A DNA stretch of 64,000 nucleotides from Ilyomonas limi. Lineage in GTDB: Bacteria; Bacteroidota; Bacteroidia; Chitinophagales; Chitinophagaceae. The notes under the pieces were generated by a model. It was given only the letters and a program-made list of their open reading frames with translations. It was not told the DNA's origin and made no database searches. A program made the translations under genes and the position numbers. Shown piece after piece: positions 46,973 to 49,665 of this stretch. Each line of letters opens with the position of its first letter. Within the stretch, counting starts at the first letter, position 1. The stretch lies in the NCBI RefSeq assembly GCF_005233845.1, contig NZ_SZQL01000002.1, forward strand, positions 124,001 through 188,000, written 5' to 3'.

Positions 46973-47415
46973 ATGGAAACATCACTTATTCCCCGGTACA
47001 CGTATGCCGATTATGCACAATGGAAAGAAGATTGGGAATTGATCAAAGGTTATCCTTATCAATTGTTGCCTTCAGCAAGATGGCAACATAATAGTGTGCA
47101 GGTAAGATTATCAAAACAGGCAATGGATAGTTTTATAAAAATAGCAACTGCAACTGCATGGTATTTACAGGATTGGATTGGAAAATAAGTAATGAGACAG
47201 TTGTAAGACCTGATGTAATGATTGTGTGTGGTAAAATAGAAACCGATTATTTAGAGTTTCCGCCGGCTTTAATTGTAGAAATATTATCATCAACAAGCTT
47301 GGTAAAAAATAGAAATATAAAGTTTGAATTGTACCGGGAAAATGGTGTAAAATATTACATCATGGCTGATTATACCAAAGAAACTGTGGAAGTATTTGAG
47401 TTGATAGACAATTAA
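46973..47415 (+). pseudogene. Uma2-family protein gene with a frameshift
   Basis: Two overlapping frames together read as an Uma2 (DUF820) protein. The first starts METSLIPRYTYADYAQWKED and has SARWQHNSVQVRLSKQAMDS; the second continues NETVVRPDVMIVCGKIETDY, FPPALIVEILSSTS and KFELYRENGVKYYIMADYTK. The switch falls in the A5 run at 47137-47141: one extra A would join them. Uma2 has a PD-(D/E)xK nuclease fold, and the acidic residues lie after the shift. The joined length of about 147 residues is shorter than the usual 190. It may be a pseudogene or a sequencing error. Confidence 0.75.
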
Positions 47416-47521: not shown

Positions 47522-47565
47522 ATACAAATGCCCTTTTCGCCAGCAAGCGAAAAGGGCATTTGTAT
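47522..47565. terminator. 19-bp perfect inverted-repeat terminator
   Basis: Arms 47522-47540 (ATACAAATGCCCTTTTCGC) and 47547-47565 around a 6-nt loop. It lies 11 bases after the carB stop and ends carB transcription, possibly also Uma2 from the other side. Confidence 0.8.
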
Positions 47566-47576
47566 ATAAAGAAATG

Positions 47577-49223
47577 CTATCCTTCAAACGTGCTATAAAA
47601 ATAAGGTGTTTTTGCTTCAAACTCCGCACTGCAGGTATCTACCATTTTATATACGCGGGTAATGCCTAAGGCTTTTCTCTTTTCATATACCTCGTCATCG
47701 GTGCAATGATATTTGAGAATGCGTGCAACCTGCTCATCGCTAAAGCCGTTCTTCTTTGCTTCTTTCAGCAGGTCAGCAGGCAAATCCTGAATGGAATAAT
47801 GGCTGAGTTCTTTTTCTATGTTGCAGAGATTTTGTATCTGATAAATAAACCAGCGGTCAATGCCGGTTGCCTGTACAATGGTCTTTATTGTTACCCCCTG
47901 CATCAGCGCATCTTTAATGCGGAAAATCCTATCCCACTTTGGCGTTTTGATATACTCAATTATTTCCTCACTTTTCATCAGGCTTTTACCATAATAGCCC
48001 AGGCCAACCGCTTCATTTTCCAGGCTCTGACAAGCTTTTTGGATCGCTTCGGTAAAGCTGCGGCCAATGCCCATTACTTCACCCACACTTTTCATTTGCA
48101 AGCCCAGTGTGTCATTGGCACCTTTAAATTTATCAAAATTCCAGCGCGGCATTTTTACAATTACATAATCCAGTGCCGGTTCAAAATATGCCGAGGTAGT
48201 TCTCGTGATCTGATTTTTCAATTCATCCAGTGAATATCCAATTGCCAGCTTGGCAGCAATCTTGGCAATTGGATAACCGGTCGCCTTGCTTGCCAATGCC
48301 GAAGAACGGCTCACACGCGGATTGATTTCTACAGCAATCAGCTCTTCCGTTTCCGGATTTTGAGCAAACTGCACATTACAACCACCGGCAAAGTTGCCAA
48401 TACTGCGCATCATTTTCATAGCCTGGTTGCGCATGTCCTGAAATGCTGTATCGCTTAAGGTCATTGCCGGCGCCACCGTAATGGAATCGCCGGTATGAAC
48501 CCCCATCGGGTCCACATTTTCTACAGTACAAATAATAACTACATTATCATTTTTATCACGCAGCAATTCCAGTTCAAATTCTTTCCACCCAAGTACTGCC
48601 TTCTCTACCAGCACTTCATGCATGGGTGATGCCTCCAAACCACGTTTCAACGCTTCATCCAACTCACTTTTATCGTGCACAAAACTGCCGCCGGTACCAC
48701 CGAGCGTAAATGAAGGACGGATTACCAGCGGAAAACCAATTTCCTGTGCATATTCTTTTCCTTCCAGAAAGCTGTTGGCTACATGGCTGGGCGCCACTTT
48801 TATTCCAATATCAACCATCAGCTGGCGAAATTTTTCACGGTCTTCGGCAGTATCAATTGCTGCTACATCTACGCCAATCATGCGCACACCATATTTTTTC
48901 CAAACGCCCAGTTCATCCGCTTCTTTACAGAGGTTCAAAGCGGTTTGTCCGCCCATGGTTGGCAGCACGGCATCAATCTGGGTTTCTTCCAGAATCTGCT
49001 CAATACTTTCTACCGTTAAAGGCAGCAAATACACTTTATCCGCCATCATCGGGTCGGTCATGATGGTTGCGGGATTACTGTTTATTAATATCACTTTTAT
49101 CCCTTCTTCGCGCAGGCTACGGGCTGCCTGTGAACCGGAATAATCAAACTCGCAAGCCTGACCAATAATGATGGGACCAGAACCTACAATAAGCACAGAT
49201 TGAATAGAAGTATCTTTTGGCAT
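47577..49223 (-). CDS. carB: Carbamoyl-phosphate synthase large chain, N-terminal half only
   Basis: The 548-residue product is the first half of CarB. It contains the carboxyphosphate ATP-grasp domain (SVLIVGSGPIIIGQACEFDYS, LPTMGGQTALNL, PLVIRPSFTLGGTGGSFV, INPRVSRSSALASKATGYPIAKI) and the oligomerisation domain (ITRTTSAYFEPALDYVIVKMPRW; CSAEFEAKTPYFYSTFEG). Normal CarB is about 940-1070 residues and continues from YSTF into a second ATP-grasp half. Here a TAG stop and a strong terminator follow, and no second half is in the window. Upstream frame to 49328 is unlikely; MPKDTSIQSVLIVG is the expected start. The other half is presumably encoded elsewhere. Confidence 0.93.
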   Translation of the reverse strand: MPKDTSIQSVLIVGSGPIIIGQACEFDYSGSQAARSLREEGIKVILINSNPATIMTDPMMADKVYLLPLTVESIEQILEETQIDAVLPTMGGQTALNLCKEADELGVWKKYGVRMIGVDVAAIDTAEDREKFRQLMVDIGIKVAPSHVANSFLEGKEYAQEIGFPLVIRPSFTLGGTGGSFVHDKSELDEALKRGLEASPMHEVLVEKAVLGWKEFELELLRDKNDNVVIICTVENVDPMGVHTGDSITVAPAMTLSDTAFQDMRNQAMKMMRSIGNFAGGCNVQFAQNPETEELIAVEINPRVSRSSALASKATGYPIAKIAAKLAIGYSLDELKNQITRTTSAYFEPALDYVIVKMPRWNFDKFKGANDTLGLQMKSVGEVMGIGRSFTEAIQKACQSLENEAVGLGYYGKSLMKSEEIIEYIKTPKWDRIFRIKDALMQGVTIKTIVQATGIDRWFIYQIQNLCNIEKELSHYSIQDLPADLLKEAKKNGFSDEQVARILKYHCTDDEVYEKRKALGITRVYKMVDTCSAEFEAKTPYFYSTFEG

Positions 49224-49240
49224 AGTAAAAACAAATTGTG

Positions 49241-49248
49241 CAAATGTA
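49241..49248 (-). promoter_or_regulatory. Candidate -7 element of carB
   Basis: TACATTTG on the minus strand, 17 bases before the start codon. Confidence 0.5.
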
Positions 49249-49443: not shown

Positions 49444-49502
49444 ACCAGTACACAGATTGAGCTTTTAAGCGAGTACCTGCGTTTTGAACCACAGAGAGGA
49501 AC

Positions 49503-49532
49503 GTCATTGCGAGCAAAGCGAAGCAATCTGTG
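49503..49532 (+). repeat. GTCATTGCGAGC repeat, copy 2
   Basis: GTCATTGCGAGCAAAGCGAA plus GCAATCTGTG. The inverse lies at 49636-49665 with one mismatch in 30. Confidence 0.85.
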
Positions 49533-49635: not shown

Positions 49636-49665
49636 CACAGATTGCTTCGCTTTGCTCGCAATAAC
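49636..49665 (-). repeat. GTCATTGCGAGC repeat, copy 3 (inverted)
   Basis: Inverted partner of 49503-49532, 29 of 30 bases complementary; 103 bases separate the two, so they could form a long stem-loop. Confidence 0.85.

Follow-up and report, generated by a model that had tools for sequence, protein, structure and literature searches.

The carB gene in the stretch of DNA analysed here (64,000 nucleotides, referred to as the window) encodes one half of what we consider, with a probability of about 0.93, to be a naturally split large chain of carbamoyl phosphate synthetase (CPS): CarA, CarB-N and CarB-C, the products of three genes, would form one enzyme. CarA (the glutaminase) would supply ammonia, CarB-N would use ATP to convert bicarbonate and ammonia into carbamate, and CarB-C would phosphorylate the carbamate to yield carbamoyl phosphate; contact between the subunits would take the place of the covalent linker of fused CarB. 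Sequence, together with the analogy to known split enzymes, suggests that the halves bind each other and that the assembled split enzyme is active. Genomes, contigs, loci and families are denoted below by G, C, L and f numbers, G000 being the window genome.

Results

The carB gene of the window encodes the N-terminal half of the large chain

The carB-N reading frame (Table 1) comprises 548 aa from an ATG at 49223 on the minus strand; the start chosen by the ORF finder was an upstream GTG, giving 583 aa. The protein matches positions 1–542 of 1058 of the NCBIfam large-subunit profile NF003671, and Pfam CPSase_L_D1, D2 and D3 each match it in one stretch. Its alignment spans residues 1–548 of E. 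coli CarB with 290/548 identities, and its end coincides with the joint between the two synthetase halves. The pre-ATP-grasp, ATP-grasp and oligomerisation domains of a CPS II N-terminal half are thus all present, as a sequence-only reading of this DNA had claimed in describing the gene as a first half only. The perfect terminator-like hairpin that the same reading placed after the stop codon was recovered by an inverted repeat search (arms 47522–47540 and 47547–47565), and a genome-wide ATP-grasp search agreed with it that the N-half stands alone in the window. By eye, an inverted repeat of small mobile or REP-like appearance lies 5' of carB-N (about 49502–49532 and 49641–49662), and a short frame past the terminator (47158–47415, plus strand), apparently part of a broken gene, resembles a Uma2-like endonuclease.

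Table 1. Position of the split CPS genes and associated elements (window numbering unless a contig is given).
Feature	Position	Strand	Basis
carB N-terminal half (CPS.A: carbamate-forming synthetase half + oligomerisation domain), 548 aa	47577..49223	-	profile matches, E. coli alignment
intrinsic-terminator-like hairpin 3' of carB-N	47522..47565	.	19-bp perfect stem, 6-nt loop
promoter-like element TACATTTGCACAATTT (consensus TAnnTTTGCRCAAT), 9 bp ahead of carB-N ATG	49233..49248	-	= G000:C12:173233-173248 (window start C12:124001); putative function
carB C-terminal half, 397 aa	G000:C1:127220-128410	-	CPS ATP-grasp search of window genome (G000)

The C-terminal half and carA are found on other contigs

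The window genome (5.88 Mb, 70 contigs) was searched with the CPS ATP-grasp family as query and five places matched. One of them is a C-terminal half with its own ATG start, on a different contig from carB-N, and this frame is the sole C-half match at E ≤ 1e-80. It covers positions 540–925 of 1058 of NF003671 with 565 bits; the score lies below the whole-protein cut-off of 599, as expected since the protein is a half. It matches E. coli CarB from residue 555 (183/366 identities) and is matched by Pfam D1 and D2, so the second ATP-grasp of a CPS II is present, on another contig than carB-N. The two halves tile the large chain and the missing piece is the linker only. The CPS II glutaminase subunit, carA, is present on a third contig (G000:C8; TIGR01368 above cut-off). 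The search for a C-half and carA that the sequence-only reading had proposed has therefore located both, each on a separate contig, and its option of a split pair with an unlinked partner is the one that held.

That reading had also expected the partner to carry an MGS-like allosteric domain. A Pfam scan of the C-half found none, and the two MGS matches in the window genome are PurH and methylglyoxal synthase. The fused CarB frames of the family, mostly about 940–1021 aa among the matches listed, are too short for MGS, so that, judged by frame length alone, the fused relatives lack the domain too and MGS is not a defining part of the enzyme in this family. Without the allosteric domain the enzyme would not be controlled by UMP, ornithine or IMP.

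Split carB is common in the family, and a second kind of split occurs in the phylum

Among named records, the 80 nearest that the search retained are mostly Chitinophagaceae or Bacteroidetes MAGs and include Sediminibacterium, Foetidibacter, Limnovirga, Hydrotalea, Segetibacter and other genera. In all 80 the N-half stops 0–4 codons past the end residue of carB-N, so the survey of close relatives found the same end throughout. No C-half was found in the fetched flanks (up to 4 kb) of these N-halves; a separate C-half frame of 404–502 aa is present in 14/14 named genomes searched (15 asked). On the 7.29-Mb chromosome record CP128386.1 the N-half lies at about 3,708,929–3,710,572 and the C-half at 6,123,856–6,125,046, 2.4 Mb apart. 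Two N-half copies accompany one C-half in G069 (C67:83743-85383 and C77:24508-26148) and in Limnovirga soli (G353). The named-record and family-genome samples overlap, some entries probably being the same assemblies.

A search of 107 family genomes with the C-half gave matches in 103, each with a single one at E ≤ 1e-80. Sixty of the frames exceed 900 aa (one is that of the divergent G089), 41 measure 380–445 aa (among them a fragment at a contig start in G020) and two are broken; about 40 of the 103 genomes are thus split. Apart from G089, fused family CarB is, over its C-half, 81–91% identical to the C-half of the window genome. The CarB frame of G089 (L247) has 1104 aa and is 48% (C) and 53% (N) identical to that of the window; it was perhaps acquired from elsewhere or is a binning contaminant.

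Across 163 genomes sampled from the phylum, the matches listed place the oligomerisation domain in frames of 941–1219 aa in most genomes outside the family; a 655-aa frame at a contig end in G253 is an exception. At least 35 genomes of other families (f10, f13, f15, f24 and f26) carry a cut oligomerisation domain in frames of 493–533 aa. A separate second-half frame of 598–662 aa was found in 6/6 such genomes searched further, and the C-halves have 596–622 aa where read (G230, G199, G270 and G195). Both halves were read in G230, where they are adjacent, and also in G199 and G270, there from separate loci; in G195, where they flank one gene, the C-half alone was read; elsewhere they lie further apart. 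The N-half ends at position 54 of 80 of D3 in both proteins scanned (G230 and G266), and the C-half carries MGS in both scanned (G230 and G199). The linker split of this clade and the break inside the oligomerisation domain elsewhere make two kinds of split in the phylum. The earlier statement that the phylum normally has carB as one gene stands for most sampled families and fails for this clade and for the families with the different split.

The break lies in a variable linker

Between YSTF(E/D) and KKK(I/V) the fused proteins have a linker of 9–24 variable residues (50/53 read), with an NES motif 2–17 residues into it in 47 of those 50. Split N-halves whose partner is adjacent or near terminate at STFE or shortly beyond it, and in 37/37 split C-halves an ATG stands ahead of NES. 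The distance between the halves varies widely: 17 bp from N stop to C start in G045, 147 and 506 bp between the half alignments in G011 and G081, and 3.6 and 5.0 kb in G027 and G082. In a larger set of split genomes that includes the window's (the old group, see below) the halves compared either sit on separate contigs or are separated by 42 kb or more; in G066 the distance is 0.6 Mb. The 506-bp gap of G081 (L219) contains short direct repeats and an apparent gene fragment, which we take to resemble an ORF6N-type gene, as if the linker had been broken by an insertion.

Neighbouring genes were compared in 4-kb flanks, the neighbour families being picked after seeing the table. The families 5' of fused carB (32/55 fused loci) are, by eye, a peroxiredoxin, an M23 peptidase, a biotin ligase, RsfS and FtsH; they recur 5' of the N-half at 20/32 N loci and at 0/32 C loci. 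Those 3' of fused carB (23/55 fused loci) are, again by eye, ComEC-like, a response regulator plus kinase, PurH and two unnamed families, and they recur 3' of the C-half at 11/32 C loci and at 0/32 N loci. One further C locus, that of G067, has them on the 5' side of the C-half, and in the genomes of these 12 C loci the N loci also keep their own side. Fisher p-values for flank retention are 2.3e-8 and 1.4e-4, ignoring shared ancestry and counting G067 with the C loci. At the two loci of the window genome the ancestral neighbours were not found in the 4-kb flanks; its ComEC-like and PurH genes lie together on contig C45. N loci that keep the 5' side and C loci that keep the 3' side are the pattern expected after a rearrangement through the linker, and the gene was probably broken there in this way.

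carB was apparently split several times

Trees were made from 90 of the 107 family genomes and G089, which was included in the first C tree but not in the later one. The genomes left out are G020 (N-half spread over two frames, C-half at the start of a contig), G033 and G038 (broken), G041 (N-half not found), G012 and G077 (C-half not found), G091 (neither found), G030 (82-aa N piece only), and G078 and G100–G106 (contig end, or genus already present). One of 80 genomes (G085) gave no rpoB and six rpoB rows are partial. The split and fused states need 9 changes on the C tree, 9 on the N tree and 10 on the rpoB tree, with shuffled means of 26–31.

In the C tree 29 split genomes, including that of the window, form one side of a branch (SH-aLRT 95) and are here called the old group. 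The rpoB tree unites 27 of the 29 in a clade (SH-aLRT 100) whose sister is the fused G008 plus G009, and the other two, G079 and G097, group with the fused G039; the N tree requires 4 changes for the 29. Eight further splits are scattered among fused genomes (G001, G011, G027, G045, G074, G081, G082 and G098). On 31 of the 79 rpoB rows, with rows and group picked after seeing the tree and the long branch G074 omitted, a single origin is rejected for the splits as a whole (p-AU 3.5e-50) and is not rejected for the old group (p-AU 0.137). All ten sampled outgroup loci are fused. We read these data as a single old fission, with others perhaps inside the old group, and several more recent ones, apparently all at the same joint.

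The split copies keep the catalytic residues and evolve no faster

We inspected positions that we take to be catalytic or ATP-binding in E. coli, namely R129, R169, G175, G176, E215, G241, H243, Q285, E299, N301 and R303 in the N-half and R675, R715, G722, H754, E761, G786, H788, Q829, E841, N843 and R845 in the C-half. All eleven N and all eleven C positions are identical to E. coli in the pair of the window genome; at a twelfth N position inspected, 210, E. coli has L and the window genome V. The 22 positions are retained in 37/37 split genomes, and the 64 fused rows (53 family, 10 outgroups and G089) show exceptions at 175 (one) and 754 (seven). The median distance to outgroups divided by that of rpoB is 1.17 for the N-half in 37 split genomes versus 1.21 in 38 fused ones, and 1.00 versus 1.04 for the C-half. 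Judged from these alignments, split copies evolve no faster than fused ones relative to rpoB.

A shared promoter-like element lies upstream of many carB genes and half-genes

The sequence TAnnTTTG, presumably the Bacteroidota −7 box, occurs within 70 bp upstream of 29/37 C-halves, 28/37 N-halves and 28/53 fused genes (1.3, 1.2 and 1.8 expected from shuffles). The longer form TAnnTTTGCRCAAT stands within 260 bp upstream of 24/53 fused genes, 24/37 N-halves and 22/37 C-halves, and in 0/10 outgroup loci in full. In 2.42 million strand-bases of family loci it occurs 70 times, 69 of them at carB pieces; the N-half copy of the window genome is extra to these. A looser form precedes 61 of the 73 N-halves in named records whose upstream sequence was long enough; there are 5 other matches in 675 kb. 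A 16-mer form searched in five whole genomes gave 8 matches (reversed control 2), five at carB pieces; by eye, the remaining three precede carA (G051), a heme-A-synthase-like frame (L349, G000:C23) and an aminotransferase-like frame (L350, G022), the last two in one genome each. Since sequences upstream of carB were used to define the element, its matches at carB are partly circular; the carA match in G051 is not. A shorter 12-mer has 11 matches in the window genome (reversed control 0), one at the N-half and one at the C23 heme-A-synthase-like frame.

Both halves carry the element in 17/29 old-group genomes and at least one half does in 28/29; seven of the eight scattered splits have it on neither half and one on the N-half alone. 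The C-half of the window genome has an imperfect copy (score 11 of 12), and none was seen in the 80 bp upstream of its carA. The shared element may keep the unlinked CPS genes expressed together.

CAAT is followed by TT in 24/24 N boxes, 24/24 fused boxes and 9/22 C boxes. The resulting CAATTT run is similar to the start of the E. coli carAB P1 promoter, a UTP-sensitive one prone to slippage (reiterative transcription), at which control is abolished when the T-run in the initially transcribed region is interrupted (PMC6245113). Its presence in 9/22 C boxes only argues against slippage at the C-halves. In a search for a regulatory RNA no Rfam family reached its gathering score in L118, L119 or L249. 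Among the literature matches listed no paper combined reiterative transcription, UTP and Bacteroidetes. It is conceivable, and in our judgement unlikely, that loss of MGS moved the control of CPS to transcription, with TAnnTTTGCRCAATTT as a start element giving an AAUUU start and slippage at high UTP; expression set by the element would then have allowed repeated breaks of the linker, and C-halves with their own copy could move yet be made in step with the N-half.

Discussion

A single gene half with a stop codon at the domain joint could also be a decayed carB, truncated by loss of its second half, with carbamoyl phosphate coming from other sources. This reading, one of the two offered from the sequence of the window, draws on the solitary position of the N-half there, and we reject it as very improbable: an intact second half is present on G000:C1, 80/80 relatives are split alike, the catalytic positions are kept in every split genome and the split copies do not evolve faster. 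An assembly or sequencing artefact at the carB-N stop codon, which had likewise been suggested and for which the 70-contig assembly might speak, can be dismissed with near certainty, since all 80 named relatives, including the CP128386.1 chromosome, stop at the same residue and the C-half has its own ATG on another contig.

A history in which a common ancestor of all split genomes underwent a single fission, reversed later by re-fusions, would fit the single branch that holds the 29 old-group C-halves, the proximity of the fused G008, G009 and G039 to the old group in the rpoB tree, and the fact that adjacent halves could re-fuse. Set against this are the fused outgroup loci, the 9–10 changes on three gene trees, the AU rejection (obtained with the 31 rpoB rows and the group chosen after seeing the tree) and the precise re-fusion that dispersed halves would need, and we consider such a history improbable. 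Duplication of the whole locus and subsequent loss of opposite halves, rather than a break, is a somewhat better candidate, though still an unlikely one. The similar upstream element on both halves and a genome with two N-half copies speak for it. Against it are the 4-kb flanks, where the 3' families are missing from every N locus and the 5' families from every C locus, and the finding that none of the 103 matching genomes has more than one C-half match at E ≤ 1e-80. Repeated breakage at the linker remains the history that we favour.

Unstable intermediates pass through the internal tunnel of CPS, so a break between the active sites might be costly. The apparently repeated breaks in this family, with halves adjacent, a few kb or Mb apart, offer a natural series for studying how a channelling enzyme tolerates fission, and the same series is useful for asking what keeps the expression of a metabolic enzyme's subunits coordinated when their genes are unlinked. 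The family also supplies a small CPS that lacks the allosteric domain. Half-genes of this kind may be labelled partial by annotation pipelines.

Comparison with known systems

In the open-licence literature searched, no split carB of this group was found among the matches listed, which is no proof of its absence from print. Split CPS as such is already known from Aquifex (review PMC6022934); new here are the recurrence, the absent regulatory domain and the shared upstream element.

As in Aquifex aeolicus, the large chain is encoded by separate CPS.A and CPS.B genes in addition to a glutaminase gene, with the break in the window genome likewise between CPS.A and CPS.B. Aquifex CPS.B presumably keeps its regulatory domain, unlike the C-half of the window genome. 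A further difference from Aquifex is that the split is seen here beside fused relatives and is recurrent. The A. aeolicus CPS.A, CPS.B and GLN proteins form one active complex (Ahuja et al., 2001, as described in review PMC6022934).

The E. coli enzyme (CarA plus a 1073-aa CarB, PDB 1bxr) has the same domain order to about residue 940 and is identical at the checked catalytic positions, but it has one large-subunit chain instead of two, and a C-terminal allosteric domain that is missing here. This domain contains the IMP site, within Ser937–Lys1073 of CarB (PMC6245113). The fused CarB of the family is one gene, and the split ones are broken in its variable linker of 9–24 residues.

The second split type (f10, f13, f15, f24 and f26) also has CarB in two genes, but the break lies inside the oligomerisation domain and MGS is kept in the two scanned, unlike the linker break without MGS described here. 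The split of M. jannaschii is, we assume, of the same form as this second type. Finally, PMC6022934 describes a single-domain CPS of 41 kDa from Methanobrevibacter smithii, which resembles the split enzyme in that small CPS chains work as an assembly; one domain type dimerises there, whereas two different specialised halves would come together here.
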